Both the position numbers and the translations under genes were made by a program. Source: Candidatus Cloacimonadota bacterium (lineage in GTDB: Bacteria; Cloacimonadota; Cloacimonadia; JGIOTU-2). From it: a stretch of 60,135 nt of DNA. Location: contig JAGMCF010000192.1 of assembly GCA_023129415.1 (NCBI GenBank), positions 1 through 60,135 on the forward strand, read 5' to 3'. The notes beneath the pieces are model-generated. The model made no database searches and was not told the DNA's origin. It saw only the letters and a program-made list of their open reading frames with translations. Numbering within the stretch: the first letter of the stretch is position 1; every line of letters starts with the position of its first letter. Shown here one piece after another: positions 4,262 through 60,135 of the stretch.

Positions 4262-4314
4262 ATTTTCCTTTATTAATATTATTATATTAATATATTATAT
4301 ATATATATAATATA

Positions 4315-4505
4315 CGCTGTGGAAATGTGGAAAATTACTGAAAATCCATTAATACTGGGTATATTATTCATTTTATTATGTGGATATTTTTGTTGATATT
4401 TCTTTTTTATACACATTGAAAAATAAATATCTCATTTTAATATTTTAAAATGATAATTATCTACAGAAATTAACATACTATGTGAACAAATTTGTGGATA
4501 AGTTC
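4315..4505. other. putative oriC half, downstream of dnaA (DnaA-box cluster)
   Basis: This AT-rich tract holds several DnaA-box-like 9-mers. TGTGGATAA at 4493-4501 is a perfect box (TTATCCACA on the minus strand). Near matches are TGTGGAAAT (4318-4326), TGTGGAAAA (4326-4334), TGTGGATAT (4379-4387) and TTATCTACA (4457-4465). A long TA-dinucleotide run (about 4280-4314) adjoins and could act as an unwinding element. Together with the cluster upstream of dnaA this suggests a bipartite origin. Confidence 0.65.
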
Positions 4506-4551
4506 ATAAAAAAGTTTTTTTAAGGGAGATAAGGGAATTAAAGTAATATTT

Positions 4552-5880
4552 TTATCCATTTATATTCTGAATAATTTCATTGATTTTTGATTTCAGGTTT
4601 GGATCATCAGCAATCTTATTTGATATGATTTTTTTTGCATGGATTATTGTTGTGTGATCTTTTTTATTGTAATGATTTGCAATTTCAAGAAGTGAAGTAT
4701 GAGGTATAAGTTTAGTAGAAAGATACATCGCGATCTGGCGCGGGAAGGCAATCTCTTTTTTTCTGGTTGGTTCTTTTATCTGATTTTTACCAATTTCAAA
4801 ATATTTTGCTACCTCTTCTTGAATAATATCTAAAGTAATTGGTTTTTTCTGGTTTGCTATTAAATCTGCAAGCATTTCTTTTACTTCATCAATTTTGATT
4901 TGATGAGGTTTGATTTTTTTATATGATGTATATGCTAAAATTTTAATAAGAGAACCCTCAAGTTGTCTTACATTATCATCAAAAGTATTTGCAATATAAT
5001 CAATAACTTCGTTATTCATAGTAACATCTTCTTCAATACATTTTTGTCGAAGAATAGCGACACGAGTTTCAAAGTTTGGTTTTTTTATATCTGTAAGAAG
5101 TCCCCATTCAAAGCGGGAAATCAAGCGTTCCTGCAAATCTTGAATTTCTTTTGGAGGACGATCACTTGTTAGAATTATTTGTTTTTTTGCATTGTATAGT
5201 GTATTGAAGGTATGAAAGAATTCTTCCTGACTTCCTTCTTTTCCTGCAAAAAAATGAATATCATCAATCATTAAAACATCAAAATTGCGAAATCTTTTTC
5301 TGAAATTGATAATTGTATTAGTTTGGATTGCAGATATCATTTCATTAATAAAATCTTGAGAAGCACTGAATAAAATATTTCTATTTTTTTTATCATTATT
5401 TATTATATAATTTCCAATTGCTTGCATAATATGAGTTTTTCCCAATCCGACACCACCATAGATAAAAAGAGGATTGTAAATTTTTCCTGGTTTATCAGCA
5501 ACAGCTTGAGCAGCAGAATAAGCAAAATTATTATTATTTCCAACTACGAATCGCTCAAAAGTATATCTTGAATTCAGTCCAGATTCCTTTGTAGAATCTA
5601 TAATACTTTTCATAGTAGTTTTTTTGGTATTATTTGATGAACCTATGAAATCAATATCAATGTTTTGTGCGGTGATGTTGTAAGCTATTTCTTCTACAAT
5701 AGATTTATAATGTTGTTCAAGCCAGTCTGCAAAAAATTTTGTTGGAGCTTTTATTGTGAGAGTATTATTTACAAAGCTAAATTCTTCTGTTTTTTCAAAC
5801 CAGGTATTAAAAGTTTGAGAATCTACCTGCTTTTTTAATTCAGGTAAAATTCTTTTCCACATAATATTTGATTCTATCAT
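4552..5880 (-). CDS. dnaA: chromosomal replication initiator protein DnaA
   Basis: DnaA binds 9-bp boxes at oriC and melts the origin for replication. The 442-residue protein shows domain I (WKRILPELKKQV, FNTWF), a short linker, and the AAA+ core beginning at the YTFERFVVGNNNNFAYSAA motif. Walker A is GGVGLGKTHIMQAI, Walker B is VLMIDDIHFF, and the C-terminal helix-turn-helix carries the DHTTIIHA signature. Length and motif order are normal. The first ATG fits the family; a second ATG six codons in (MWKRI) is possible and neither has a clear Shine-Dalgarno. It is divergent from the rpmH-rnpA-yidD-yidC block, with DnaA boxes on both sides, so autoregulation is likely. Confidence 0.98.
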   Translation of the reverse strand: MIESNIMWKRILPELKKQVDSQTFNTWFEKTEEFSFVNNTLTIKAPTKFFADWLEQHYKSIVEEIAYNITAQNIDIDFIGSSNNTKKTTMKSIIDSTKESGLNSRYTFERFVVGNNNNFAYSAAQAVADKPGKIYNPLFIYGGVGLGKTHIMQAIGNYIINNDKKNRNILFSASQDFINEMISAIQTNTIINFRKRFRNFDVLMIDDIHFFAGKEGSQEEFFHTFNTLYNAKKQIILTSDRPPKEIQDLQERLISRFEWGLLTDIKKPNFETRVAILRQKCIEEDVTMNNEVIDYIANTFDDNVRQLEGSLIKILAYTSYKKIKPHQIKIDEVKEMLADLIANQKKPITLDIIQEEVAKYFEIGKNQIKEPTRKKEIAFPRQIAMYLSTKLIPHTSLLEIANHYNKKDHTTIIHAKKIISNKIADDPNLKSKINEIIQNING

Positions 5881-5939
5881 ATATTCACAATTTTAGATTG
5901 TGTAACTCAATGAATTAAAGAGAGGTAGTTTTGAGAGAA

Positions 5940-6060
5940 TAATTTTTATCCACATATTTATCAACATTTTATCCTTATTTGTATTTATCACCTGCACAAC
6001 AAATTACAAGAAAAAAGACCAATAACAAAAAACAGTTATTCACATTGTTGAAATTCTAAT
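5940..6060. other. putative oriC half, between dnaA and rpmH (DnaA boxes)
   Basis: This stretch carries a perfect DnaA box TTATCCACA (5946-5954) and one-mismatch boxes TTATCAACA (5958-5966) and TTATTCACA (6046-6054). It would also hold the divergent dnaA and rpmH promoters. Confidence 0.6.
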
Positions 6061-6179
6061 CTATAAATATTTGACCAAAACAGGAAATATTTATTTAGGG
6101 CTGTCAATAAAAAACAAAAATCTTGACACTAAAAATATCTCATCTGGATTCTAAATTATAATTTTCAGGAGGATTTGTT

Positions 6180-6314
6180 GTGAAAAGAACATATCAGCCA
6201 CATAATAGAAGCAGAAAAAGCACACATGGTTTCAGAAAAAGAATGAGATCAAAAAATGGTAGAAAAATCATTAATCGCAGAAGAGCTAAAAGAAGAAAAA
6301 GAATATCTGTATAG
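6180..6314 (+). CDS. rpmH: 50S ribosomal protein L34
   Basis: This 44-residue ORF is missing from the ORF track because it is short and starts with GTG. Translation gives [18 protein letters not shown], then [20 protein letters not shown], the complete bL34 pattern. L34 is a small basic protein of the large ribosomal subunit. A strong Shine-Dalgarno AGGAGG (6167-6172) sits seven bases before the GTG and fixes the start. A TTGACA at 6123-6128 lies upstream, but I could not place a well-spaced -10. It heads the classic rpmH-rnpA-yidD-yidC order. Confidence 0.97.
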
Positions 6315-6415
6315 TGAATTGGTTAATTTGTGAATTGGTAAATTGGTGAATTTGTAAATTTTTATATTTTAGTAGAAATTTTTTTCTATAAAATTTTTGC
6401 TATAAAATCATCTTA

Positions 6416-6487
6416 GTGTCTTTGTGCCCATTCTCCGTAGCAGTAGTACTGCTACTGCGAAGGATGAATCTTAGTGGTAAAATATAC
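6416..6487 (+). repeat. leader repeat with nested palindrome upstream of rnpA
   Basis: The tract reads as a broken copy of a ctttgtgtctttgtgg-type leader: TGTCTTTGTGCCCATTCTCC, then GTAG, a 17-bp palindrome-like core cagtagtactgctactg, CGAAGGATGAATC, and TTAGTGGTAAAA before the GTG start. The same frame CCATTCTCCGTAG..CG(A/T)(A/T)GGATGAA(T/C)C occurs upstream of the PorV-like gene with a different core. Confidence 0.6.
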
Positions 6488-6489
6488 AT

Positions 6490-6828
6490 GTGAAAAGCAT
6501 AAGAAGATATTATCAATTTAAAGAATTAAGGGAAAATGGAAAGAGATTTAGAAAATCATTTTTTGATTTGATTGTAGTGAAAAAGGATATCTACGGAAAT
6601 AGGGATTTTGGCCTTGCAGTTATTACATCTAAAAAAATTGGCAATGCCGTAAAAAGAAATAAAATCCGCAGATGGATAAAAGAATATTTCCGTATGTCAG
6701 ACCATTCCATACCATTAAACATAAATTATTTAATAATAACAAAGCCAGGAATTTTTGAATATGGTCGTGATAATATTTTGAAAGATTTAAAAAATGGTAT
6801 TGAAAAGATTAGAAAAGAATATTTGTAA
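6490..6828 (+). CDS. rnpA: ribonuclease P protein component
   Basis: RnpA is the protein subunit of RNase P, which cleaves the 5' leader from pre-tRNA. The 112-residue product has the [29 protein letters not shown] segment, whose KRNKIRR is the RNR-type RNA-binding signature. Length is typical. The start is GTG at 6490, overlapping an out-of-frame ATG (ATGTGA). The downstream yidD gene begins inside the rnpA 3' end (35 bp overlap), which implies translational coupling. A leader repeat with a palindrome lies between rpmH and this gene. Confidence 0.95.
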
Positions 6829-7060
6829 AACATTGATTAAATTTATTGGGATATATCAGAGATTTATCTCACCAATGTTTCCGGATTCATGTAGATTTGT
6901 GCCTTCTTGTTCTGCTTATTCTAAATTAGCATTTGAGAATTTTGGCATTTTAAAAGGCTTATATTTATCAGCCTGGCGAATATTACGATGTAATCCTTTT
7001 TGCAAAGGTGGAGAAGATCCTTTACCTTCTATGAAACAGACCGCGAATGCACGCGAATAG
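6794..7060 (+). CDS. yidD: membrane protein insertion efficiency factor YidD
   Basis: YidD is a small membrane-associated protein thought to assist YidC-dependent insertion. The 88-residue product carries the family core: [18 protein letters not shown], then [16 protein letters not shown], and [18 protein letters not shown], with the conserved cysteines. It overlaps rnpA by 35 bp and precedes yidC by about 100 bp, the usual arrangement. A slightly later start is possible because the first residues (MVLKRLEKN) are coded within rnpA. Confidence 0.93.
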
Positions 7061-7161
7061 TCGCTAATAAATAAATAATATTTTGGGAAAATGGCATTCA
7101 TTAGTAGTATTTTTTTATAGGACTATGATACATAAGGTTTGGAACTAAAGAGAATATAATT

Positions 7162-8793
7162 ATGGATAAAAGGACAATACTTGCTTTATTACTAATTTTT
7201 ATTGTATTTATTATTAGCAATAAAATACTATGGAAGAAACCTCAACAAGAACAAATTGTTATTCAACAAAAGAAAGAAGTTGTCTCTGAAACTATTACAG
7301 ATAAAGAGTTGGAACCAAAAGAACCGATCATTCCTCTTGGGGATAAAGAGGATTTTCAGGAAATAGATATTAACGATAATATAGTATTGGAAAATGATGT
7401 AGTTAAAATTATTTTTACTAATCGTGGTGGAAATATCAGGCAGATTATATTAAAAAATATAATGAAAGATGATAAGGTAACTCCTGTTGAACTTCTTTTA
7501 TCAGAAAAAGGATTATTAAATATTAAATTTATAACAGAGTCCGATAGTTTTGATATGAGAAAAAATAATTTAGCATATTACCAGAGTGATAATTTTGTTG
7601 AATTTTATTTAGAAGTAGAAGATAAGAAGATAGTTCAGAAATCATTTCAACTTCATGATAATTACCAACTAACTATGAATCTGTTGATTGAAGATTTTGG
7701 TTTGATACATTCGTATAATTTAGGAATGGATTCGGGTGTATTTTTTGACCAGAAAGGAGATAAACGTTTTGTAAGTTATATCAAAGCAGTATCTCAGATT
7801 GATAATAAAATTTCTAAGGTTGGATTAAAAAATGCTATTAAAGGCGAGTTATTATATGGAAATGTTGATTGGACTGTTGTAAAATCTAAATATTTTATGT
7901 TAGCAACAATTCCTGACCGTCGTGTAAAATTAAGAGAAATTTCTATTTTTGCTGGTAATAACTCATTAAAGCAGATTTCAAGAGTAGAAGTATCACGAAT
8001 AAAAATTGATCATAACTTTAATTTTTATTTTGGTCCTGTTGATTATGATAATTTAAAAGCAATTGGTTTAGAAAAGTCTATGAGTTTTGGAATGATACCG
8101 CCAATTAGTAAATTGATTCTAAAATTACTTATGTTTTTGTATAAACTTGTTCCTAATTATGGATTTTCTATTATCATATTATCAATAGTCTTGAAATTAT
8201 TATTTTCTCCTTTAACTCATAAAAGTACTCAATCCACACAGAAGATGCAGCATGTACAACCATTAATTAAAGAGATTCAAGCTAAGTATAAAAATAATCC
8301 CCAGAAAGCTCAGAAAGAAATAATGGCTCTTTATAAGGAACATGGTGTAAGTCCATTAGGTGGATGTTTACCATTGCTTCTGCAGATGCCAGTTTTCTTT
8401 GCTTTATATCCAGTTTTGCAATCTACTATTGATCTTAGGCATGCAAATTTTATTCTCTGGATTAAAGATTTATCCATACCTGACCCATATTATATTTTAC
8501 CAATTATTATGGGAATAAGTATGTTTTTGCAACAGAAGTTGATGTCTGCCAAAACCTTACCAAACATGGACGATAAGCAAAAGGCACAGTTACAAACCCA
8601 AAAGATTATGATGTATGGAATGCCAATATTTTTAGTATTTATTTTTAAATCTCTTCCTGCCGGTTTAGTGCTTTATTGGCTTTCATATAATATACTTTCT
8701 ATTTTTGAGCAGATTTTAATAAGAAAAGGCGGAATTCGGAAGTCAGGATCCGAAATGAAAAAGGTGGAATTCGGAAGGCAGAATCCGAAATGA
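7162..8793 (+). CDS. yidC: membrane protein insertase YidC
   Basis: YidC inserts proteins into the inner membrane, alone or with SecYEG. The 543-residue protein has an N-terminal membrane anchor (residues about 5-25), a large periplasmic beta-domain, and the conserved C-terminal membrane core from about residue 320 (YGFSIIILSIVLKLLFSPLT, then LGGCLPLLLQMPVFFALY). The last dozen residues (GGIRKSGSEMKKVEFGRQNP) are not family-like. They are encoded by a 35-bp direct repeat (ggaattcgga..) that also forms the left flank of the next gene, so the C-terminus was probably altered by an insertion. It overlaps the next ORF by 4 bp. Confidence 0.96.
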   Translation: MDKRTILALLLIFIVFIISNKILWKKPQQEQIVIQQKKEVVSETITDKELEPKEPIIPLGDKEDFQEIDINDNIVLENDVVKIIFTNRGGNIRQIILKNIMKDDKVTPVELLLSEKGLLNIKFITESDSFDMRKNNLAYYQSDNFVEFYLEVEDKKIVQKSFQLHDNYQLTMNLLIEDFGLIHSYNLGMDSGVFFDQKGDKRFVSYIKAVSQIDNKISKVGLKNAIKGELLYGNVDWTVVKSKYFMLATIPDRRVKLREISIFAGNNSLKQISRVEVSRIKIDHNFNFYFGPVDYDNLKAIGLEKSMSFGMIPPISKLILKLLMFLYKLVPNYGFSIIILSIVLKLLFSPLTHKSTQSTQKMQHVQPLIKEIQAKYKNNPQKAQKEIMALYKEHGVSPLGGCLPLLLQMPVFFALYPVLQSTIDLRHANFILWIKDLSIPDPYYILPIIMGISMFLQQKLMSAKTLPNMDDKQKAQLQTQKIMMYGMPIFLVFIFKSLPAGLVLYWLSYNILSIFEQILIRKGGIRKSGSEMKKVEFGRQNPK

Positions 8794-8800
8794 AAAAATT
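8731..8800 (+). repeat. two 35-bp direct repeats at yidC 3' end
   Basis: GGAATTCGGAAGTCAGGATC..GAAATGAAAAAGGT is followed at once by GGAATTCGGAAGGCAGAATC..GAAATGAAAAA. The arm GAATTCGGAA (8767-8776) recurs inverted as TTCCGAATTC at 9222-9231, beyond the four-helix-bundle gene. Confidence 0.75.
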
Positions 8801-9155
8801 TGCCATTGAATTAGAAAAAAGGACAAAAGATTTTTCAATAAATTTGATAAAGACTATCTCTAAAATTGGGAATACACCTGAACTAAAAATTATTAGATAT
8901 CAAGTTGTAAAATCAGGAACTTCTATTGGTGCAAATTATAGGGAAGCAAATCGAGCCATAAGTAAAGCGGAGTTTAAAGCAAAAATATCAATCTGTGAGA
9001 AAGAGGCTAGTGAAACAGTTTATTGGCTTGAAATATTAAAAAGTATTTTGGGCAATGAAAATATCAAGAAAGATATCAATAAACTCCGAAATGAAGCCAA
9101 TGAATTATTGGCTATATTTATTTCTTCTGGAAAAAGTTTAAGTAAAGACCGATAA
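8790..9155 (+). CDS. four helix bundle protein (23S rRNA intervening-sequence type)
   Basis: This 121-residue protein belongs to the small four-helix-bundle family first found in 23S rRNA intervening sequences. Diagnostic segments are FSINLIKTISKIGNTPELK, YQVVKSGTSIGANYREANRA and EASETVYWLEILKSI. The molecular role of the family is not known; structurally related proteins assist diversity-generating retroelements. The start ATG lies within the yidC stop region (ATGA overlap) and within a repeat. Inverted GAATTCGGAA/TTCCGAATTC arms flank the gene, which suggests it arrived as a small element. A paralogue is at 56.7 kb. Confidence 0.88.
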   Translation: MKKFAIELEKRTKDFSINLIKTISKIGNTPELKIIRYQVVKSGTSIGANYREANRAISKAEFKAKISICEKEASETVYWLEILKSILGNENIKKDINKLRNEANELLAIFISSGKSLSKDR

Positions 9156-42186: not shown

Positions 42187-45100
42187 ATGAAAAAGAAATT
42201 TATAATAATCATAACTATATTAGCAATTGTAGGAATAGCTACTAATGCATTTGCTGATAAATCAACACCATTTACTGCAATAACTCTTGACACAAATAAT
42301 GATGGTTTTGTTGATGTTATCGATGTGTATCTCACTTTTAATATACTAGATGTTCAAGTTAATTGGGCTAATCTTACTGATGATTTCCAGGTGGGTGGTT
42401 ATACCAGCGCTGTTACAGTTGATGGTATTGATACAGGAGCGTTTCCAGACGATAATGTTTTTCGTGTTCATATTCATTCAGGTGTTCCAAACACTATACC
42501 CACAAGTACAGAAGATCTATTAATTGAATATACTTATGATGGGACCAATCAAATTGTTACCACTGATCCACCTCCTGGTGGTTACCTTTGGTCTTTTCCA
42601 TGGATGAATGTAGAAGATGGTGCAGCTCCAAGTTTGGTTTCAACAACTTTTGTATCAGATCATCAAAACACATCATTAGCTATAGAAGGAACTACAATTA
42701 CAGTAGATTTCGAATCTAATGAGGAATTACTTGATTTTCCAGTTGTAAAAATATATGCTGTTGGTGGTCCCGAGGGCGCTGAAATTAATGCAACTATGGG
42801 TGTCGACAGATATCATTGGAGTGCAAGTAGAGTAATGACTGGAGACGATAATGTTTCTGGTTTGATAAAAGCTGATTTCACTATTGAAGATCTGAATTAT
42901 AATGAAGATACAAAAACTGATACAAGCACGATTGCCTACAAAACGGACCCTGCAACAGAAGTTTATGTTGATCCAACATATACTGCCCAAGCAAATGTAC
43001 CAGCAGGTAAATATTGGTTATGGGATTGCTTTGAAAAAATTCAAGAAGGTATTAATGGTGTTGCAGATCCAGGAACCGTAATTGTTCTTGCAGGAACAGG
43101 AACATACAAAGAAGATCTCACTATTAATAAAACTCTTGAAGTTCGACCTTATGGAACAGCAAAAGCTTATGATGATGTTACTATAAAAGGTGAGGCAACT
43201 GTCGCAGCTGCTTTATGGCCTTTAGCAGACCCAAATATAGAAATTACTGCAAGTGGTGTTTCAATTCACAACTTCAAAATCGAAGCCCCGGACTATGTTG
43301 TCGGTTTTTATTCAAGTGGTATTGTAATTGGAGCTACAAATGTTTCTATTTATTTAAATGAATTTTATGCCACTTCTGCAAGCAATACAGATGATATCTG
43401 CCAATCAATCCAAACCTATAACGGTGTAGATGTCTCCGGTTTGAATATTTATACGAACACATTTACACATAAAGTTTATAAATGGACTGCAGACTGGGGA
43501 TATGAAGCTATCTATATTAATCCCGGTGGCACAGGATTAGTGAATATTGAAGATAATACTCTTGGCGGAAAACTGTTCAGGGCAATTACTGCTCAACGAT
43601 CCAACTGTAACATTGAAGCTAATAACATAAGTACTGACTTAAATCCTGTTTCTGATGATTGGGTCACAGCCGGTGCCTGGGTTGGAATCTGGGCTTACAC
43701 TGATATTTCCAATATCACTATAACCGGAAATACAGTTCAGGGTGATGTTGGTGGAGCTGGTTTCAATAGAGGTATCCGTCTAGGTTCGACCGGCGGAAGC
43801 ACATTCACAAACCTGAGTGTAACTTCTAACGAGATCTATTACAACAAAAACGGTATCTACTCACAAAGTGCTACCGGCATTACTATCACAGGCAACGCTA
43901 TTGTTAATAACACTCTTAATGGTATTTTCTGTGATACCGGCACACTCGATGCAGAACACAACTGGTGGGGCTCTCCAAATGGACCTACTCATGTAAATAA
44001 TACTTATAATATCGCTCTAGGTCAAGGTGATGCCTCTTCAGACCATGTAGATTATGTGCCTTGGTATGATACAGGTATGACAGGTACTACTTTTGCTCCT
44101 GTTCACAGTGATGATGGTTTAGTAAAAGCTATAACCTATTTCTCTTCTATCCAAACTGCCATCGATGCTGCCGCTGCTGGTGCTACACTTACCTGCCAGG
44201 ATGGTACATTCACCGAAGATTTCGAAGTTGACCAGGATGTAACCCTGCAATCTGCAAACGGTCTTGGTAATACAACTATTCAGCTTATAGATTCTGAAAA
44301 CGGTATCAATTTGATATCGGGTGCAGGTGGATTTACTTTCGGTGGTAGTAGCGGTCATGGATTCACATTATTAGGCGGTACATTTTCTGAGCAGGCTTTA
44401 ATTGGTACAGGATGTGGACTTAGCAATGTAACTATCTCCTACAATACTATTAACACTACCGGAAATGCCGCTTATGGTATTCAGTCTTGGACTGACGCTC
44501 CTCTTATTAACCTTATTATCGAATATAATAACTTCATTGCGGATGAAGTTGCAGGTACTCAACCTGGAGATCGTTCTCTTAATTTGTACAGTATTACTAA
44601 TTCCAGTATTTCATATAATCCATTCACAGGGCCAAACAGTGTTGTATCTAATAGTAGTTATGCAATGCAGTTTGCTGGAGTTACAACCTCGCAAATTTCA
44701 GGAAATAGCATAACAGGTTACTATAATGGAATTTATATTGGTAGTGGTTGCGATGGCGGTGGAACCTCTGATTTAACAATAACTGACAACACATTTACAG
44801 AATGTTATAGAGCTATCAGGATAAGAGACTGGGGTGAATCTTGGGTCGGAAATGTTACGACCTTGGATATCAATCTAAACACTTTCTCTCCTGATAATAC
44901 TTACGGAATTTACATTTATGATGGTATTCAGCTAAAACCTGAAGATTTTACAATTGTTAATAATGATTTCAGCGGTTGTACTACAGGAATTGAAAACTTA
45001 CACACAACACAAGTTGTTGCAGAAGACAACTGGTGGGGTTCCGGTTCGGGTCCTGACCATGTTGATAATACCTTCATAAATCCTGCAGGTGAACCACATG

Positions 45101-48100
45101 GTGTTATAGTCTCAAATAATGTGGATTATGTGCCCTGGATGGATACTGATATGACATGTACTTCCTTTGCTCCAGTTGAAAAACTTCCAGGTGCAATCAA
45201 AAATGGTATTGAATACTTCTCATCTATACAGACTGCAATTGATACTGCAAGTTCTAATGATGAGATTATTTGTTATGCTGGTACATTTACAGAAGATATT
45301 TCTATTCCACTAACAACAACAGGTCTTGAAATTAGACCTAATGGCACAGCAAAGGTATATGATGATGTAACTATTAAGGGAGTTGATACTTTAGCTTGGG
45401 CTAACTGGCCACTTGCAGATCCGAATATCAATATACTTGCAAGCGGAACAAAGATACATCACTTTACTATAGAAAGCCCGGATGTTGCTGATGGATACTA
45501 TTCCAGTGGAATGGTTATTGATGGAACTAATGTTGAAATCTATAATAATGATTTTGTTATGATTGGTTCAGGTACAGTTGATCCAGGTGGTGTTGCAATT
45601 CAAACATATCGTGATAATGTACTTGGTTATTATAGTAATATTACTGGCTTGAATATCCATGATAATACATTTAGCGGAACACCAGCAGGTGATTATGTTG
45701 CAATATTCATTAATCACCAGTCTTTCACTAAACCTATAGATTATCGTATTTATATTCAGAACAATGATTTCTCTGGATATGTCCATCAGGGTATTGTAAC
45801 TGAGCGTGATTATACAGTGATAAGTGGTAATACAGTTACAAGAAGTTATTCGATAAAACAAAAAACTGGTTATGGAATGATAATACAAGATTGGGACGCA
45901 CGTCCTCAAAATGATGTAGAAGTTTATGATAATAGCATTTCAAACTTTGCTTATGGTATTCTTATTGGTAGAACAACCCCATCTCCACAAACATTAACAA
46001 ATATCTATATTCATGATAATGATATTAACCAGAATGATGTTGGTGTTAAAGTTCGTGCTTCTTTATCTGGTGTAACAATTAATTACAATAACATATCTGG
46101 CAATGATACCTTTGGTGTTGAAAATGCAACTTATGATAAAGTTGAATTTCTAAATGCAGAAAAGAACTGGTGGGGTGATGCAACAGGTGCAACTCATCCA
46201 AGCAATCCTCATAATATTCCCAAAGTATATGGAGATGGTGATACTGTAAACGATGGTGTTGATTTCATCCCCTGGTATGCAACCATTACCACAACACCCA
46301 GCACACAATATGTTGGTGTTGATTGGGATGTTAAGAAACGAGGATCTGATAAGTGGAGCAAAAAACCCAGAGAAAGAAGTGGAGAAAAAGTAGATGTTGG
46401 AGATTTAAATTATCCTCTTGCATTTTCTGATATAATTCAGGATGCTATTGATGCTGCTGTGGATTACTGCGATATAATTATCGGTACAAGTGGAAGTCCT
46501 TATACTGAGGATTTAACTATCAATAATAAGAACTTTATTTGGTTATATGGATATGATGATAGTGAAAAACAGTTCAGCTATCCTGAAATTTATGGTTCAC
46601 ATCAAGTATTAACTGATTTTGTAGGATTTAGTTATTTGAATTTTATACCCGGAAATGATGCTGTTGCTATTTACATTAATTCTTCAGGTTATCCAATTAC
46701 CGATGTATATGTTATTAACAATGAATTTACTCTTAATGATGGAGCAGTAGGTGTCCAGGTTGGTGGTTTAAATACTCCATATTTAGTATCTTATGTTTTT
46801 ATGTATGAGAATACATTCAACGGTCCGACGAGTAAAACAGCAGGTTGTGCAAATCCATTCAGGATTGGCGGTTGGTTTGGAATTCCAGTTAGCTGTCCAG
46901 TTGAATTTGTATATTTCTATGGAAATTATGTAAATTATGCATCAATTCCAATTAATTTGCATAATGCCGATATTAATTATTTGTTGATTGGATATAATAC
47001 CTTCAGAAATACAGATGGAGTAATTTATATCTGGGATGATGGCGAAACTCCAACCGGTGCTTTATCAGATTTCTGGTTTAATAATAATGATGTAGATTAT
47101 ACAAATACCTATGGTGTTGGGATTGATGTGTTTGATGTATATGATGATTCAAACTTTGATCAAAGCTTAGGTTCCCATAGTTGTATCAATGAGAATAGTT
47201 TTGATGGTATTCCTGGGGACTATGGCTTTGAAGCTGTAAGTATATTGTCTAATTTAACCACATATGTTCTTGATGCAGAAAATAACTGGTGGGGTTCAAG
47301 ATCTGGACCTATTCATTCAGGTAATACCTATACTACTCCTCCTCCACCTAAAAATGGTGGTAGATGTACAGTCAGCGATAATGTTGATTATGTAAGATGG
47401 TATGACGATGGCACAAATGCTATGTGTCCACCAGGAGATCCAGGTTGGGAACCATATGGAAATCTATTTGCCCCTGTTGTTAGAGATGATGGCTATAAAG
47501 CAATTGTTGGATATTATTCTTCCATACAAGCTGGAATTGATGACGCTTCTAATAATGATGAGATAATTTGTTATGCTGGCACATTCACAGAAGATTTCAG
47601 TGTTCCTAATACAGTAACAGGTCTTGATATTAATCCAAGAGAAGTTGTCAAAGGTTATGACGATGTTACAATAAAAGGTATAGCAACCCTTGAAGCCGCT
47701 CAATTCCCGAATGTAGATCCTAATATTGATATTTGGGGAGCTAATACAGAAATTCACAATTTCACAATTGAAGCACCTGATTATGTTGAAGGATATTATT
47801 CAAGCAGTGTTGTCATCGGTGCACAGAATGTTACTATAGCTGATAATGACTTTATTATGAATTCTGTTTCTTCATGGGATGATGTTTCTCAAGTAATTCA
47901 GACATATGCAACTATTGATGTTTCCGGTTTGAATATTTCCGGTAACACTTTCACTCATACTGTATATAAAAATGGAGCTGACTATGGTTATGAAGCGATT
48001 TACATTAATTCAGATGCAGGCACTGGAACAGTTACAATAATTGATAATGTATTAAGTGGTTATATATTTAGAGGAATCACAACTGAACGTTCTTATACAA

Positions 48101-51100
48101 CAATAACAGGGAATTCAATAATAACTGATCTTGGAATTCTGCCAGATGATTGGAGTGCTCCTGGTTCATGGCAGGGAATTAATGTTTATAACTACGCTGG
48201 TGATCCTCAAACAGATATTACTGTAACTGGAAATACAGTCAAAGGTATCGATGCTACAAAAGGATTCAACCAGGGTTTGAGAATTGGTAAGGATGGTCAA
48301 ACCTTAACAAATGTGCTTGTAGGTGAAGTATTACCTAAAGGATTAGCTCTTGGAAATACATTTAATTATAACAAATATGGTATTTTAGTGAAATCTGCGA
48401 GTGGAGTTACAATTAATGGCAACGCTATTGTTGATAATACTTTATATGGTATTCAAAATACAGATACAGGAGCAAAAGCTATTCTTGATGCTATAAACAA
48501 CTGGTGGGGTGACCCAACCGGTCCGAGCTTCTCCTTTGATTACGGATTGGGTTCGGGATTAGGTGATACAGTCTCCACTTATGTTGATTACACACCCTGG
48601 TACGATACAGACATGTATGGAACTTCATATTATCCGACTGTAACTCAATTTGTAATGGAATTAAATCCAACATCTCCTTATCAAAATAATTACTTTGATA
48701 TCAGAATTGCAGCCGCTGACACATTTGGAACAAGAAACCAGGATTATGGAAACTTAGCTGATTTCAGCAGCAGTCATGCTGCTTTAACTGTGCCAGAAGA
48801 ACAGCTTCTTGTTGACGGCTTCAAAGAAGTAACAAACGGATGTATTTCTACTGAAGCATTTGCTGCAACTGATCATCTGACAATCTATTCTTGGGAATAC
48901 AACACAAATCCACCAATCTACTATTCTTCATTAACCGATATTGTAATTCAACCGCAATGTGCACCAGCTCCTCCTACTGCTGTATCAGTCTTGGATGTCC
49001 CGGATGATAATGGTGGTTGGATATATCTTGATTATACAGTCTCTACAGATGATCCATTCTACATAAGTAAAGATACTACTTGCGCAGGTGTTAGTTACTA
49101 TATAGTAGAAAGAGATGCTGATACAACTGCTGCTACAAACTGGCAGTACTTCGCAACAATAGGTTGTTATGATGATGGTAGTGGAACAAACGATAGAAGA
49201 GCACTACTTAATGCACCTGCATCTGATGTTGCTTATGATTATCAGATGTGTTCTGTCCATAATCCATCAAAAGAGGAAATCATATTTGATGATAACCACA
49301 TCTCATATGAACCAATTCTTTTGTCTAAGGATGCTTCACAATCTGCTTGGGTATTTGCAGGAAGCGCTCCAGCAAAGGATAACCTTCCAGCATACGCAAA
49401 TATGAATGTGTTCTTTGAGGGTCCCTATCAGACTGGCGGCATAATGACCAATGACCTCTACACTGCTGGGCTTCTTCCTGTTGGTGCTCCTGCTAATGCC
49501 GTTGATGTAATTACCGTAGAACTTAGATCTACAACTACTGGTACTACTGTAAAATCAGCAATTGCTTATGTAGCAACCGACGGTTCTATCATTAACGATA
49601 GCGGTGAAAAGAGTCTCCCATTCTACTACACAACTGGTATTGAATACTACATTGTCATTCTTCATAGAAATCACCTAGCTATCATGAGTGCTGCTACTCA
49701 TAAATTTGGTGACTTTGCAAGCCAGGCTACAACCATTGATCTGACTACTGTTGGAGCTGCCTATCTTAACGGTTTTAAAGAGGTTGATACAGGTGTGTAT
49801 GCTATGTATGATGGTGATGCTAATGGATCAGAACTAGTAAATGTTAATGATGCATATGATTTGATTGATCATTTTGGCATGGCTGGATATCTTGGTAGTG
49901 ACCTGAACTTAAGCGGTTATGTAAATGTCAATGATGCGTATGAACTTATTGGCAACTTTGGTGTTGGTACATCTGTACCTGGAAATCTTAAGGATGACCT
50001 AAATAATGGGCAAAATGTTAGCTTCAACGTACCTATTACTACAGGAACAAAAGTTCTTGAATGCACCCTAGAAATTAAGAATGTTCAAATAATAGCAGGT
50101 GTTTCTTATAGCTTTGATATTTACATCACAAGAAATACTTCTAACTGGTCAGCACTTGGACACCTTACATTCTTAACTGAGACTTACTATTCTGACCTTG
50201 TGTTCAACTACAATGGCTCAGCACTAAATAATCCAGTTGTCAGTAGTTTAAGTCCTGTTGCAACAGGTACAAATGTGACCACGCCTTCATCTGGTGTGTT
50301 ATCAATTGAAGTGATTGATGGTGGATCTAATGTTCCAACATCTGAGACAAAACTGTTAACCGTTACTTTCGATATTACCGATCCCTCTGCTACTGCTCAA
50401 CTAAGCTGGAGAACAGGTGATACATCAATTATCAATGAATCCAGTAATAACTACAACGTTGCAGAAGGAACTCTCAGCTTGTTAGGTTCAGATGACTCTA
50501 CGCTTCCTGTTGAGCTTTCAGCATTCACTGCTTTGTATAATGTTGAGCATGAAAATGTTATACTTAAGTGGACAACTGCAAGTGAAACTGATGTTCAGGG
50601 ATTCAATATTTATCGTTCTGAATGTGATGATATAGAAACAGTAGGAAATCGTATTAATTACTCACTGATTTCACTACCGGAGACAGGAACCACTACAAAT
50701 CCAATCGATTATTCATATGAAGATATTGTAGCGAATGTTTATTCACCTTACTATTATTGGCTTGAAGTAGTAGATTATGGTGGCACTTCCAGCTTTCACG
50801 GTTCTATTGTATATACCCCTGGAGATATAACAGGAGACAATACAACTGATGTCTATGCTGCAACCAGACTTATTGGAGCTTATCCAAATCCTGCTCATAA
50901 CTATACGATAATTAAATATCAGTTATGCGGAAGTGTGCTTGAGCAGAATGCGACAATAAAAGTGTATAACATTCTTGGTAAGTGTGTGAAGACTGTTGAA
51001 GGTAGAATCGGTAAAGTAGAATTTGATGTATCTGATCTTGGTTCTGGTATCTACTTCTATCAACTGAAAACTAGCAATTATAATATTGTGAAGAAGCTGA

Positions 51101-51114
51101 TTGTTATTAGATAA
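42187..51114 (+). CDS. giant parallel beta-helix surface protein with T9SS sorting tail
   Basis: This 2975-residue secreted protein has a signal peptide (1-23), then a dockerin-like DTNNDGFVDVIDVYLTF. Five right-handed beta-helix modules follow, each opening with (Y)FSSIQTAIDxA..GTFTED or similar and closing with an NNWWGxxxGP motif (codons near 43961, 45029, 46165, 47284 and 48499, about 1.1 kb apart) and VDYVPWYDT. Near residue 2545, GDANGSELVNVNDAYDLIDH and DLNLSGYVNVNDAYELIGNF form a dockerin-type EF-hand pair. A cohesin-like domain precedes the tail GAYPNPAHNYTI..GIYFYQL..KKLIVIR. A role in polysaccharide binding or surface assembly is likely; catalysis is unproven. Confidence 0.88.
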   Translation: MKKKFIIIITILAIVGIATNAFADKSTPFTAITLDTNNDGFVDVIDVYLTFNILDVQVNWANLTDDFQVGGYTSAVTVDGIDTGAFPDDNVFRVHIHSGVPNTIPTSTEDLLIEYTYDGTNQIVTTDPPPGGYLWSFPWMNVEDGAAPSLVSTTFVSDHQNTSLAIEGTTITVDFESNEELLDFPVVKIYAVGGPEGAEINATMGVDRYHWSASRVMTGDDNVSGLIKADFTIEDLNYNEDTKTDTSTIAYKTDPATEVYVDPTYTAQANVPAGKYWLWDCFEKIQEGINGVADPGTVIVLAGTGTYKEDLTINKTLEVRPYGTAKAYDDVTIKGEATVAAALWPLADPNIEITASGVSIHNFKIEAPDYVVGFYSSGIVIGATNVSIYLNEFYATSASNTDDICQSIQTYNGVDVSGLNIYTNTFTHKVYKWTADWGYEAIYINPGGTGLVNIEDNTLGGKLFRAITAQRSNCNIEANNISTDLNPVSDDWVTAGAWVGIWAYTDISNITITGNTVQGDVGGAGFNRGIRLGSTGGSTFTNLSVTSNEIYYNKNGIYSQSATGITITGNAIVNNTLNGIFCDTGTLDAEHNWWGSPNGPTHVNNTYNIALGQGDASSDHVDYVPWYDTGMTGTTFAPVHSDDGLVKAITYFSSIQTAIDAAAAGATLTCQDGTFTEDFEVDQDVTLQSANGLGNTTIQLIDSENGINLISGAGGFTFGGSSGHGFTLLGGTFSEQALIGTGCGLSNVTISYNTINTTGNAAYGIQSWTDAPLINLIIEYNNFIADEVAGTQPGDRSLNLYSITNSSISYNPFTGPNSVVSNSSYAMQFAGVTTSQISGNSITGYYNGIYIGSGCDGGGTSDLTITDNTFTECYRAIRIRDWGESWVGNVTTLDINLNTFSPDNTYGIYIYDGIQLKPEDFTIVNNDFSGCTTGIENLHTTQVVAEDNWWGSGSGPDHVDNTFINPAGEPHGVIVSNNVDYVPWMDTDMTCTSFAPVEKLPGAIKNGIEYFSSIQTAIDTASSNDEIICYAGTFTEDISIPLTTTGLEIRPNGTAKVYDDVTIKGVDTLAWANWPLADPNINILASGTKIHHFTIESPDVADGYYSSGMVIDGTNVEIYNNDFVMIGSGTVDPGGVAIQTYRDNVLGYYSNITGLNIHDNTFSGTPAGDYVAIFINHQSFTKPIDYRIYIQNNDFSGYVHQGIVTERDYTVISGNTVTRSYSIKQKTGYGMIIQDWDARPQNDVEVYDNSISNFAYGILIGRTTPSPQTLTNIYIHDNDINQNDVGVKVRASLSGVTINYNNISGNDTFGVENATYDKVEFLNAEKNWWGDATGATHPSNPHNIPKVYGDGDTVNDGVDFIPWYATITTTPSTQYVGVDWDVKKRGSDKWSKKPRERSGEKVDVGDLNYPLAFSDIIQDAIDAAVDYCDIIIGTSGSPYTEDLTINNKNFIWLYGYDDSEKQFSYPEIYGSHQVLTDFVGFSYLNFIPGNDAVAIYINSSGYPITDVYVINNEFTLNDGAVGVQVGGLNTPYLVSYVFMYENTFNGPTSKTAGCANPFRIGGWFGIPVSCPVEFVYFYGNYVNYASIPINLHNADINYLLIGYNTFRNTDGVIYIWDDGETPTGALSDFWFNNNDVDYTNTYGVGIDVFDVYDDSNFDQSLGSHSCINENSFDGIPGDYGFEAVSILSNLTTYVLDAENNWWGSRSGPIHSGNTYTTPPPPKNGGRCTVSDNVDYVRWYDDGTNAMCPPGDPGWEPYGNLFAPVVRDDGYKAIVGYYSSIQAGIDDASNNDEIICYAGTFTEDFSVPNTVTGLDINPREVVKGYDDVTIKGIATLEAAQFPNVDPNIDIWGANTEIHNFTIEAPDYVEGYYSSSVVIGAQNVTIADNDFIMNSVSSWDDVSQVIQTYATIDVSGLNISGNTFTHTVYKNGADYGYEAIYINSDAGTGTVTIIDNVLSGYIFRGITTERSYTTITGNSIITDLGILPDDWSAPGSWQGINVYNYAGDPQTDITVTGNTVKGIDATKGFNQGLRIGKDGQTLTNVLVGEVLPKGLALGNTFNYNKYGILVKSASGVTINGNAIVDNTLYGIQNTDTGAKAILDAINNWWGDPTGPSFSFDYGLGSGLGDTVSTYVDYTPWYDTDMYGTSYYPTVTQFVMELNPTSPYQNNYFDIRIAAADTFGTRNQDYGNLADFSSSHAALTVPEEQLLVDGFKEVTNGCISTEAFAATDHLTIYSWEYNTNPPIYYSSLTDIVIQPQCAPAPPTAVSVLDVPDDNGGWIYLDYTVSTDDPFYISKDTTCAGVSYYIVERDADTTAATNWQYFATIGCYDDGSGTNDRRALLNAPASDVAYDYQMCSVHNPSKEEIIFDDNHISYEPILLSKDASQSAWVFAGSAPAKDNLPAYANMNVFFEGPYQTGGIMTNDLYTAGLLPVGAPANAVDVITVELRSTTTGTTVKSAIAYVATDGSIINDSGEKSLPFYYTTGIEYYIVILHRNHLAIMSAATHKFGDFASQATTIDLTTVGAAYLNGFKEVDTGVYAMYDGDANGSELVNVNDAYDLIDHFGMAGYLGSDLNLSGYVNVNDAYELIGNFGVGTSVPGNLKDDLNNGQNVSFNVPITTGTKVLECTLEIKNVQIIAGVSYSFDIYITRNTSNWSALGHLTFLTETYYSDLVFNYNGSALNNPVVSSLSPVATGTNVTTPSSGVLSIEVIDGGSNVPTSETKLLTVTFDITDPSATAQLSWRTGDTSIINESSNNYNVAEGTLSLLGSDDSTLPVELSAFTALYNVEHENVILKWTTASETDVQGFNIYRSECDDIETVGNRINYSLISLPETGTTTNPIDYSYEDIVANVYSPYYYWLEVVDYGGTSSFHGSIVYTPGDITGDNTTDVYAATRLIGAYPNPAHNYTIIKYQLCGSVLEQNATIKVYNILGKCVKTVEGRIGKVEFDVSDLGSGIYFYQLKTSNYNIVKKLIVIR

Positions 51115-51351: not shown

Positions 51352-52269
51352 ATGAAGAGAATTATAATTTATAAAAATTATGTAATTACATTTGCTTTCA
51401 TTTTTGTTGTATTTGCTCAAATACTGTTTGCAGTTGAACCAAAGGAAGAAGTTGGAATTACTTTTACCTTTGCAAATGGAGAAGTTACAACTCAAGGTGA
51501 TAGCAGCTATTATGAGTTTGATGTTATGCTTGAAGCAGATGAATCAGATACTTTTTTTGGTTCAGGGATGGTTTATATCAATTACAACATAGATGGATTT
51601 GGTGATTACATTTCAACAAATAATAATATTATTTTAACTAAAGGTGCTCTTATCCAGGGAGAATTGACACCAGGATTGCCTCTTTATAACATTGTTAATA
51701 CTGTTGATAATACCCCATTTAGAATAGCAATTACAACAGATTATAATTATCCAGCAAACCCATTATTTGCAAATCCTTTAACTACATCACCAATTCAATA
51801 TCTTCATATTAAGATTCTAATTTATGACCCATCACAAAATGCAGGACTTAGCTTTGAGCAAAATTTGATGGAGGGACAACAATATCACTCAAACAACTCA
51901 ACAATTTACTCACCAGTTATTGCGATTGATATTGATAATTCCAGCCTTCCGGTAAGCAATGCTGATATATCGGAACCAAAATGTGGATTATTGCAAAATA
52001 CTCCAAATCCTTTTGGAAGAACTAATTCTTCTACAGAAATAAATTTTATAATTGATAAGAATGCTTTAGCTGAAGTAAAAATTTATAATATACGCGGACA
52101 ATTAGTAAGAAATTTATTTATAGGCATTGTTAATAAAGACGAGGAATTGAATCTTATCTGGAATGGAAAAGATGAGGAAGGAAATATTCTCCAGTCAGGT
52201 ATTTATTTTTATCAATTAAGGGTTGATAAAGAGTCTTATCAGTCAAAGAAGTTGCTATTAATAAGATGA
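51352..52269 (+). CDS. secreted protein with T9SS sorting tail
   Basis: This 305-residue protein has a signal peptide (residues 1-28, YVITFAFIFVVFAQILFAVE), a cohesin/immunoglobulin-like middle (GITFTFANGEVTTQGDSSYY, FEQNLMEGQQYHSN) and the tail LLQNTPNPFGRTNSSTEINF, AEVKIYNIRGQLVRNLF and GIYFYQLRVDKESYQSKKLL with LIR at the end. It belongs with the giant protein upstream: same strand, same sorting signal type. It has its own terminator. Function is unknown; the domain resembles surface adhesion modules. Confidence 0.82.
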   Translation: MKRIIIYKNYVITFAFIFVVFAQILFAVEPKEEVGITFTFANGEVTTQGDSSYYEFDVMLEADESDTFFGSGMVYINYNIDGFGDYISTNNNIILTKGALIQGELTPGLPLYNIVNTVDNTPFRIAITTDYNYPANPLFANPLTTSPIQYLHIKILIYDPSQNAGLSFEQNLMEGQQYHSNNSTIYSPVIAIDIDNSSLPVSNADISEPKCGLLQNTPNPFGRTNSSTEINFIIDKNALAEVKIYNIRGQLVRNLFIGIVNKDEELNLIWNGKDEEGNILQSGIYFYQLRVDKESYQSKKLLLIR

Positions 52270-56657: not shown

Positions 56658-57122
56658 ATGACAAATTTTAAAGATTTAACTGTTTATAAAAAAGCTTTTA
56701 GTATGGCAATGGAGATTTATCATCTTACTAAAAGTTTTCCTAAAGATGAACTTTATTCCCTTACAAATCAAATTAGAAAATCATCTCGTTCTGTTTGCTC
56801 AAATATTGCTGAAGGATACAGAAAACGTCAATATCCAGCACACTTTATAAGTAAAATATCTGATGCGGATATGGAAAATAGCGAAACACAAGTATGGATT
56901 GATTTTGCCTTTAGTTGTAATTACATTGATAAAAATATAAAGCAAGGTTTAGAAAATAAAACAATTGAAATAGGACGACTTTTAAATCATATGATAGAAA
57001 ATCCGGAGAAATATAAGAAAAAAAGTAATCCATCAACTGGCGGGAAAAGGCAATTGAATAATGTGAGCAATCTTCCCGTCCGCGGGGATAGTAAGCAAAA
57101 GGGAAAAGTTGGCAACTGTTAA
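56658..57122 (+). CDS. four helix bundle protein (23S rRNA intervening-sequence type), second copy
   Basis: This 154-residue protein is of the same family as the gene after yidC. FKDLTVYKKAFSMAMEIYHL, FPKDELYSLTNQIRKSSRSV and CSNIAEGYRKRQYPAHFISK are textbook family segments. The conserved domain ends near residue 120 (NHMIENPEKYKK). The remaining tail (SNPSTGGKRQLNNVSNLPVR..) is encoded by flanking repeats, including the palindrome TCCCGTCCGCGGGGA (57074-57088). Inverted TTGGCAATAA-type arms flank it. It is only distantly similar to the first copy, so it is not a recent duplicate. Confidence 0.87.
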   Translation: MTNFKDLTVYKKAFSMAMEIYHLTKSFPKDELYSLTNQIRKSSRSVCSNIAEGYRKRQYPAHFISKISDADMENSETQVWIDFAFSCNYIDKNIKQGLENKTIEIGRLLNHMIENPEKYKKKSNPSTGGKRQLNNVSNLPVRGDSKQKGKVGNC

Positions 57123-57140: not shown

Positions 57141-57260
57141 ATCTTAAATGTATATTTTTCTGCCGAATGGATGGAATTCCTGTTAAACAGATCTTTTTTA
57201 TAGTTTCAGTATATAGCACATTATCCATACTAACCAAGAGTATTGGTAATAATTGTAAGT

Positions 57261-58151
57261 ATGTTTACAATCAGAAAGATACGAAAATCACACAAAGAGA
57301 GGATCTTAGCTATTTCTTCAAAAATATGGGAGGGTGATGATTATGTAACTTCAATATTTGAAAAGTGGATTGATGATGAAAAAGGAGAGTTTACGGGTAT
57401 TTGGTTAAATAATCAACTTGTTGGCTTTGGTAAACTTACTTTTATTACTCCAACAGATGTGTGGCTTGAGGGTTTACGAAAAGATTTGTGTTTAGAACAA
57501 AAGGGGGTAGGATCAGCTTTAACGAAATATTATCTTGAAAGATTGAAACAAGAGCCAAATCTTACTTCAATTCGCTTTGCAACCTATTTTCAAAATTATG
57601 CTTCTATCAAGCTTTCTGAGCGATTAGGATTTGAACTGGTTGCAAAACTTTCTTTAAAAGAGTTTGACCTTAATATATATAAGAAAGAGATTAAAAAGCC
57701 TGAAAATGTAAAAGACATTTCAAATAAGGAAATAATTTTGGATTATATACATAAATCAAAATGGTTTGAGCTTTTTAAAAATTTTATCACAATTGGTTGG
57801 ATTGCTTATCCATATTCCGATGATTTCATAGCAGAGAGATTTATTAAACAAAATAGATGTTATGGTATTATTGAAAAGAATGAGATAAAAGGGCTTATTT
57901 TATGGGGTAAGGCTCATAGTAAAGTGAGTTTAAAAATTTCATTTTTTGATGCCAAAGATAATGAAAAAGCAAAAAACTTATTTGTATTCATAAAATCTTA
58001 TGCAATATCTCAAGGTTATGAAAACATTGAAGCAATGCTTCCGGATATTCCAAGAGTAAAAAAATATTTTAAAGAGAATGGATTTAAAAGCTGGGCTCAA
58101 GAACATGACTTTTTGATTTATGAATTTCCACTTCAAAAACTGGAGAAATGA
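57261..58151 (+). CDS. GNAT family N-acetyltransferase, two-domain
   Basis: A 296-residue protein starting at ATG 57261; the track start (TTG, 57243) adds only six unlikely residues. The N-terminal GNAT domain (TIRKIRKSHKERILAISSKI, GIWLNNQLVGFGKLTFITPT) has the acetyl-CoA loop LCLEQKGVGSALTKYYLERL, a relaxed QxxGxG/A pattern, and FATYFQNYASIKLSERLGFE. Residues about 155-296 form a second, degenerate GNAT-like domain (GIIEKNEIKGLILWGKAHSK, NLFVFIKSYAISQGYENIEA). The substrate is unknown. It is followed 78 bp later by the STAS-domain gene on the same strand. Confidence 0.83.
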   Translation: MFTIRKIRKSHKERILAISSKIWEGDDYVTSIFEKWIDDEKGEFTGIWLNNQLVGFGKLTFITPTDVWLEGLRKDLCLEQKGVGSALTKYYLERLKQEPNLTSIRFATYFQNYASIKLSERLGFELVAKLSLKEFDLNIYKKEIKKPENVKDISNKEIILDYIHKSKWFELFKNFITIGWIAYPYSDDFIAERFIKQNRCYGIIEKNEIKGLILWGKAHSKVSLKISFFDAKDNEKAKNLFVFIKSYAISQGYENIEAMLPDIPRVKKYFKENGFKSWAQEHDFLIYEFPLQKLEK

Positions 58152-58229: not shown

Positions 58230-60135
58230 ATGTTAGAAATCAAAATTACTTATGAAGGCACGATACCCGTTTTGAACCTAAAAGGCAGATTTGATGGGTA
58301 TGGGGCTTCTTTGTTCGATGAAGAATCAGGCAAAATAAGCAGTGACATGAAATATTGGATTATTGATTTTTCAGGTGTTGAATACCTATCAAGTGCTGGT
58401 ATCAGGTCTTTGATAAAAGTAGAAAAAGCACTCCACAAAAAAACAGGGTGGTCTATTTTAGTTGGACTATATCCTGATTTGAAGAGGGTTTTAGAACTTA
58501 CAGGTTTATTAGGACAATTTCATATTTCAGATTCACTTTCAGAAGCATTAAAGCAAGTTAAAGAAACCCAAACTGCTGATAAATCTGCAACAAAACATCT
58601 ATTTGATGATAGAGAGTACCAATTAAGATGGGCTTCTAAGAAAGCAAGTATCCTTGATTTGTGGGGTTCTTTGAAGAATATAGAAGATGGTGAATTATCA
58701 TCTAAAAGTCTCATCAGAACAAATCTCAAAGAGTTGGGGTATGCTTTTGGTATTGGTGGGTTTGGAAACACAAAAGGTCAGGCTTTTGAAGCACTTGGAG
58801 AATTTATTTCAACCCCAACATTTGCAGGAATCATTCCAGCTGATGAATATTGTCTTTCTGACTTTCTTATAACTGATAAACCTTCTGAATCAGATATGTA
58901 TCTATTATCTGCATATGGATTTTCAGGAAAACCTGCAGGAGTTTTTGATGTTAAAAGCAGATTACTCTTTACATTGAAAGAATTAATTGAGGATACATTT
59001 TATCTGACTACAAAAAATAAAGAAGAAGTACCGCCATTGATTGGTTTAATAATATTAGCTGAACCAGGCGAACTTATTTGTGCACATTTCGAAACTAAAA
59101 ATGATATTTCTATTGAAGAATATTGTAAAGAGAGATTCTCCAATGAAAGAGGAACTTTAATTATTGGAATTGCTGCTGATGAGACAGCTTTGAAATCATC
59201 AAAAGATAAATCAGTTTCGCAATTTATGGAGAATATCATTAAATATCCTATAACTGAGACTCGTTTCTTTCACGGACATGGAGTATTGTTAGCCGAATTA
59301 CCAACATTATCCATTAATATGGAGTTAGGCAATAGCATTCAGAAAATATCAAATCTTGAAAATCTTAAAACAGTTGCTCATATCCAGGTAGATTCAGAAA
59401 TTAAAAATGCCAGAGTTTGGTTCTATTTGCCCAAAGCTGTCCGTACTGCTGATGAAAAAAGGCTAAAAATTGATGTAGAGAAAGGAACGGAATTATTAGA
59501 TGAATGGGATGTTATCATCAGACGAATATACTCCAATGCTGGACGAGTTGTTATTAGAGAATTGCATGGAGGTTTCACTTCAAAAACCTTTTATGTAACC
59601 AGTTATGACAAAGAAGGCAGAAGACTGCTTCCCACAGTTTTGAAGATAGGATCAATTAAAGACACCCAAAATGAAGTAAATGCTTATCATGATTATGTTA
59701 AAAAGTTCATTTTGAACAATAGTGTAACAATTATGGGCACTACTACTTATGGAAATTGGGGTGGATTGCGTTACAATTTTGTCGGTATAAATGGTCCTGA
59801 TAGTAAATTAACATGGTTGACAGATTACTATCGAAGACTCCCAGCAGATGAGCTGATTCCTCTTTTTGATAGAGTATTTACTGATATACTAAAGCCCTGG
59901 TATGGTCAACCTAAATGGGAACCAATTTATCCTTATGCTGAGCACAATCCACTTGAAATGTTTCCAGGCATATTTGATTCTTTAGAAAAGGAAGTTGGCA
60001 TCTCACCTGATGAAAAGATTGTGTATTGTAAGGAACTTGGGATGGAACTTCCAAATCCATTTTACTTCCTAAAGTACGAATATCCAAAGCGTAAGGGATA
60101 TTCCCAACTTTGGTATAAATCCATTACTCATGGAG
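58230..60135 (+). CDS. STAS-domain protein with central uncharacterised region and kinase-like tail (3' partial)
   Basis: This ORF runs past the window end (at least 635 residues) and is absent from the track. TTAGGAG stands five bases before ATG. Residues 1-110 form a STAS anti-sigma-antagonist domain: IPVLNLKGRFDGYGASLFDE and IIDFSGVEYLSSAGIRSLIK, with the Ser at the phosphorylatable position. Residues about 130-360 (LGYAFGIGGFGNTKGQAFEA, ADEYCLSDFLITDKPSESDM) resemble a degenerate SpoIIE/PP2C-like module. From about residue 465, TVLKIGSIKDTQNEVNAYHD looks like a kinase/aminoglycoside-phosphotransferase N-lobe (Lys in LKIG, Glu in NEVNAY), then NWGGLRYNFVGING. I do not recognise the whole architecture. 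Confidence 0.65.
   Translation, partial: MLEIKITYEGTIPVLNLKGRFDGYGASLFDEESGKISSDMKYWIIDFSGVEYLSSAGIRSLIKVEKALHKKTGWSILVGLYPDLKRVLELTGLLGQFHISDSLSEALKQVKETQTADKSATKHLFDDREYQLRWASKKASILDLWGSLKNIEDGELSSKSLIRTNLKELGYAFGIGGFGNTKGQAFEALGEFISTPTFAGIIPADEYCLSDFLITDKPSESDMYLLSAYGFSGKPAGVFDVKSRLLFTLKELIEDTFYLTTKNKEEVPPLIGLIILAEPGELICAHFETKNDISIEEYCKERFSNERGTLIIGIAADETALKSSKDKSVSQFMENIIKYPITETRFFHGHGVLLAELPTLSINMELGNSIQKISNLENLKTVAHIQVDSEIKNARVWFYLPKAVRTADEKRLKIDVEKGTELLDEWDVIIRRIYSNAGRVVIRELHGGFTSKTFYVTSYDKEGRRLLPTVLKIGSIKDTQNEVNAYHDYVKKFILNNSVTIMGTTTYGNWGGLRYNFVGINGPDSKLTWLTDYYRRLPADELIPLFDRVFTDILKPWYGQPKWEPIYPYAEHNPLEMFPGIFDSLEKEVGISPDEKIVYCKELGMELPNPFYFLKYEYPKRKGYSQLWYKSITHG

Follow-up and report, generated by a model that had tools for sequence, protein, structure and literature searches.

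The right end of the stretch of DNA analysed here (60,135 nucleotides, hereafter the window) carries a gene that begins with a STAS domain and runs off the contig with a kinase-like tail. The original prediction suggested that it would be a novel signalling or defence architecture. Which of the two it is, and what lies between the two recognizable domains, are the questions that this locus raises. The gene is a single open frame of 635 codons, and the frame ends only where the 60,135-bp contig does. Its features are as follows.

58230..60134, + strand: STAS - ALDC/PPC-like - TCAD9 kinase fusion; the first 635 residues of about 790, cut by the contig end.
58230..58562, + strand: STAS domain, residues 1-111; Pfam PF01740, with the PDB anti-sigma antagonists 4hyl, 1auz and 1th8 as matches.
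58392..58394, + strand: codon of Ser55, which aligns with the phosphoacceptor Ser58 of SpoIIAA and is invariant across the family.
58563..59465, + strand: middle domain, residues 112-412; acetolactate-decarboxylase/PTD012/PPC-like fold, without a Pfam family.
59466..60134, + strand: N-terminal part of the TCAD9/APH-like kinase, residues 413-635; PF19974 (E=1.1e-23) and full-length alignment.
59643..59645, + strand: codon of Lys472, the predicted ATP-binding beta3 lysine, invariant in full-length relatives.
59673..59675, + strand: codon of Glu482, the predicted alphaC glutamate, invariant in full-length relatives.

The right edge of the window cuts off a conserved bacterial signalling protein after two thirds of its length. 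The domain order is STAS, ALDC/PPC-like middle and TCAD9/APH-like kinase. Pfam recognized the STAS and TCAD9 domains in the window's copy, and no family between them. The assembly of the window was searched for the missing C-terminus, and the sequence to the right of the window is absent from it. Fourteen full-length relatives of 719 to 812 aa, from several phyla, supply this part; the catalytic half of the fusion is known from these relatives only, as the window's own catalytic loop lies outside the assembly. The kinase part is the best-conserved domain, with a mean pairwise identity of 55%, followed by the STAS domain (39%) and the middle (27%).

The gene is rare and patchy in its distribution. 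It is present in 10 of 125 genomes of the window's own phylum, in 2 of 293 genomes of a verrucomicrobial order sample, and in 2 of 56 genomes of the class to which a relative from a Syntrophobacteraceae MAG belongs. Three relatives in the window's own family (G009, G011 and G013) show 48% identity. Relatives from MAGs are labelled Latescibacterota (67% identity), Cloacimonadota, Armatimonadota, Syntrophobacteraceae, Dependentiae, Verrucomicrobia and Bacteroidetes, these labels being the submitters' own. Two "Armatimonadota" records (L027 and L028) appear to be identical with G099 and G098, which have the same contig coordinates and are placed in the window's own class. In the genomes checked, there is one copy per genome.

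The STAS domain had been recognized from the sequence, and the profile search agreed: residues 9-106 match PF01740 (E=1.2e-12) with 48 bits, which passes the curated cut-off of 22.6. In the profile alignment with SpoIIAA (1auz, 1th8), Ser55 is the first serine of the MDSSG loop. Thus, a phosphoacceptor serine in the conserved loop, the mark of partner-switch antagonists, is present, and it does not vary within the family. Between 1th8 and the crystallographic variant 1tid, it is exactly the SpoIIAA position aligned with Ser55 that differs, which fits the S58A mutant of SpoIIAA described in a review (PMC8256260). Ser55 is followed by Ala, Met, Ile or Thr, and preceded by Ser where SpoIIAA has Asp. 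Because the flanking residues deviate from SpoIIAA in this way, phosphorylation of Ser55 is uncertain.

The assignment of the tail to a TCAD9-like domain is also borne out. Residues 439-572 match TCAD9 (PF19974) with 84.6 bits (cut-off 40), and full-length relatives reach 167 bits. The kinase-like LKIG..NEVNAY pattern pointed out earlier corresponds to the beta3-Lys/alphaC-Glu pair of a kinase N-lobe, and this pair is invariant in the relatives. In every full-length member, the C-terminal part continues with HGDLNxxN (634-641) and then IDFSE (653-657). The APH/choline-kinase-like motif set (beta3 Lys, alphaC Glu, HGDxxxxN and DF(G/S)) is therefore complete in full-length relatives. The window sequence ends at the HG of HGDLNxxN, leaving Lys472 and Glu482 as the sole kinase motifs inside it; judging from the 67% identical relative, the window's copy presumably continues into the same loop. 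A profile scan of 12 members found TCAD9 and STAS in all of them and APH in 11 (E down to 2e-9). In a first full-length structure model, pLDDT was below 50 at residues 632-660, in the kinase loops, which is too uncertain for a structural reading of the active site.

One other TCAD9 match was found in the genome of the window, on contig C286 (L094 8886-10682). It was considered as the missing C-terminus of the fusion and rejected, as it belongs to a different protein of 598 aa. The N-terminal region of that protein (~200 residues) is receiver-like in look and has no Pfam match. Upstream of it, at 4309-8961, a 1550-aa protein is encoded that shows weak matches to STAS and phosphoribosyltransferase and has an apparent HATPase-like C-terminus. 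It is possible that the 598-aa protein is another regulated TCAD9 kinase.

The middle domain has no match among Pfam families or PDB sequences, and no link at the sequence level to solved structures was found. The AlphaFold2 model of residues 112-412, built with 16 aligned sequences, has a pLDDT of 91 and a pTM of 0.91. The Foldseek search of this model against PDB indicated that the 15 best matches are acetolactate decarboxylase or human PTD012, the best E being 1.7e-8 to 1xv2, with TM scores of 0.5-0.66 (up to 0.66 by target). PPC/DUF296 proteins (DUF296 being PPC) come next, followed by noise. The predicted structure thus makes the middle domain a previously unclassified family with an acetolactate-decarboxylase/PTD012/PPC-like fold. 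It resembles these proteins in fold, but it has no sequence-family match to them and lacks a conserved zinc-binding His triad: no His is conserved in the alignment of 16. Based on the absence of a conserved His, the domain is taken as a non-enzymatic transducer or a ligand/oligomerization domain. It is probably not an enzyme, and it probably oligomerizes or binds a ligand. The original prediction had likened this region to a degenerate SpoIIE/PP2C-type phosphatase on the impression of GFG/D motifs, which would make the protein a kinase, phosphatase and switch in a single chain. There is no SpoIIE or PP2C profile match up to an E of 10, and the only Foldseek matches above noise are acetolactate decarboxylase, PTD012 and PPC folds. 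The phosphatase identity is refuted at the fold level, and we give it almost no weight.

SpoIIE phosphatases do occur as separate genes beside the fusion in relatives. In L025, a partial SpoIIE gene, a HATPase_c_2 gene and a free STAS gene are directly upstream of the fusion gene. In L031, a REC-SpoIIE gene is directly upstream, and the related L070 has in this place a SpoIIE homologue whose N-terminus is receiver-like. In L074 (G105), divergently from the fusion gene, there are genes for a PF04392 protein, a second protein, HATPase_c_2, NMT1, dCache-HAMP-SpoIIE and 5TMR-SpoIIE; a similar cassette is found on another contig, in G109. Overall, a SpoIIE gene lies within 6 kb of the fusion gene in 3 of 10 lineages, the three being independent, and an RsbW-like HATPase gene accompanies it in two of the three. 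The expected number of SpoIIE-linked loci among the 10 lineages is 0.157 (P about 6e-4); this expectation is built on per-genome SpoIIE counts with lineages grouped by hand, and the count of three is conservative owing to short contigs, which bound many of the relatives' neighbourhoods.

A fourth, kinase-less instance of partner-switch linkage comes from a Desulfobacterota-type sample. The gene at L096 1033-2298 encodes 421 aa with a STAS domain and an ALDC/PPC-like middle and no kinase; its middle aligns with that of the fusion with an hhalign probability of 97.5. A STAS/HATPase_c_2/GAF-SpoIIE cassette, whose HATPase is RsbW-like, adjoins this gene, which has PF04392 substrate-binding genes on one side and an ABC permease gene on the other, as in a PF04392 ABC transporter operon. 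At L097 4343-7336, a 997-aa protein has three PF04392 ABC substrate-binding domains in tandem.

The window itself shows a different context. The PP2C partner hoped for in the original prediction exists in relatives, as a separate neighbouring SpoIIE gene, but not here: neither SpoIIE nor HATPase partner-switch genes are beside the fusion in the window. The neighbours in the window and in the syntenic G009 and G013 are genes for a K+ channel, xthA and tmk, which argues against a partner switch. The genome of the window does encode candidate partners in trans. Contig C208 carries an RsbW/RsbV-like pair, orthologues of the HATPase and STAS genes of L025 (55% and 57% identical), and contig C268 carries NMT1-like and SpoIIE genes. 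An RsbW-like kinase is encoded in all 14 genomes checked. No sigma factor gene adjoining the fusion was seen.

The fusion gene of G009 and G013 has a channel-TrkA gene on one side and xthA on the other. The window has two further genes between channel and fusion, neither of which occurs there in relatives, one for a four-helix protein of the 23S rRNA-intervening-sequence type (56658-57122), just below the bAvd cut-off, and the other for a GNAT acetyltransferase (57243-58151). The syntenic place in G012 holds a truncated 148-aa remnant of the fusion (L093 6462-6908), indicating that the gene can be lost and suggesting its recent decay in this sister genome. Farther to the left, the window encodes a giant secreted-looking protein of 2975 aa (42187-51114) that contains NxWWGxxxGP repeats and ends in a sorting-type tail. 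A 305-aa ORF (51352-52269) has a similar tail.

From the domain order, the invariant Ser55, the intact kinase motifs and the SpoIIE/HATPase neighbours in relatives, we somewhat favour the view that the fusion is a phosphorylation-gated kinase, the output component of an Rsb/SpoII-type partner switch and not a defence system. An RsbW-like HATPase kinase would phosphorylate Ser55 of the STAS domain, and a sensor-driven SpoIIE phosphatase would remove the phosphate. The resulting change in the STAS domain would be relayed through the non-catalytic ALDC/PPC-like middle, and the C-terminal TCAD9/APH-like kinase, gated in this manner, would phosphorylate a small molecule or a protein. Three parts of this view are inferred: the phosphorylation of Ser55, the gating of the kinase by its state, and the catalytic activity of the kinase.

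Two other readings retain the kinase and change its role. STAS switch proteins require a serine kinase, and the fusion supplies one in cis; as its STAS domain resembles true anti-sigma antagonists, the kinase domain could phosphorylate Ser55, in its own STAS domain or in another one, the whole being a self-contained antagonist and kinase upstream of a sigma factor. The separate RsbW-like kinase, which adjoins the fusion in L025, is close by in L074 and is encoded in every genome checked, makes this unlikely, and the usual substrates of APH-type kinases are small molecules. About as unlikely, or slightly more so, is a reading in which the kinase has a metabolic or housekeeping function, perhaps linked to K+ homeostasis via the adjacent channel, and the STAS domain serves passively to bind a nucleotide or as a docking module. 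The single chromosomal copy conserved beside the channel-TrkA gene and xthA in G009 and G013 is in line with it, but outside family f1 the channel linkage was not seen, SpoIIE/HATPase genes being the neighbours in other lineages, and the phosphoacceptor serine is invariant.

The suggested role in defence fares worse than these two. TCAD9 was named from ternary conflict systems and is found near type III CRISPR loci (PMC10910872), and active APH-superfamily kinases are known among ternary-system effectors (PMC7159879). Together with the patchy spread across phyla, these reports speak for a component of an anti-phage or conflict system of the TCAD9/vWA-MoxR-VMAP type. The fusion shares with those proteins the domain itself, above the cut-off, and intact APH-superfamily kinase motifs; unlike them, it was seen with no conflict partners, and its input is a STAS domain instead of CARF or vWA. 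No vWA, MoxR, VMAP or STAND gene was seen in the window and the relatives' loci examined, where some of the neighbours were profile-scanned, and neither the caspase nor the NTPase partners proposed earlier were found among these neighbours. A defence island also gains no support from PADLOC, viral contigs or plasmids. PADLOC found nothing in ten proteins of the window and its genome, and its matches in the fusion family were marginal; viral contigs yielded no relative in a pattern-limited search, and plasmids yielded the STAS part only and no full-length copy. Within its family, the gene is single-copy, chromosomal and syntenic. The origin of TCAD9 in conflict systems alone does not make the fusion a defence gene, and we consider such a role improbable. 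Of the two possibilities named in the original prediction, the signalling architecture, a STAS partner-switch domain fused to TCAD9, is the one supported.

The favoured reading, a gated partner-switch output, can be compared with known modules. The fusion is similar to the Rsb/SpoII modules (SpoIIAA/RsbV, SpoIIAB/RsbW and SpoIIE/RsbU) in the phosphoacceptor Ser position of its STAS domain and, in several relatives, in the neighbouring HATPase_c_2 kinase and SpoIIE phosphatase. It differs from them in that the STAS domain is joined to the middle and the kinase instead of being free-standing, and in that no adjacent sigma factor was seen. Partner-switching STAS proteins are known mainly to control sigma factors or transcription and, in a few cases, diguanylate cyclases, the c-di-GMP enzymes. 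In HsbA/HsbD, BgrV/BgrR and the STAS-related SiaC/SiaD, the phosphorylation of a STAS or STAS-like protein controls an enzyme (PMC8457831). The output of these three is a diguanylate cyclase in trans, whereas that of the fusion would be an APH-like kinase in cis. The open-access papers searched contained no STAS-APH fusion and no detailed account of TCAD9. The chance is close to even, if slightly below it, that the fusion represents a new class of partner-switch output, in which STAS gates an active APH/TCAD9 kinase in cis via a non-enzymatic ALDC/PPC-fold transducer.

The middle domain is an unclassified family whose fold has so far been linked to decarboxylase, hydrolase and PPC proteins. 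With a STAS domain and an APH-like kinase fused in cis in several phyla, the outputs of partner switching would come to include the phosphorylation of small molecules or proteins. TCAD9, discussed in the searched literature only with conflict systems, would gain a testable regulatory logic. If the new output class is real, TCAD9 kinases would be general regulated signalling kinases, for which conflict systems are one context. In the fusion described here, the STAS switch seems to be wired straight to a kinase.
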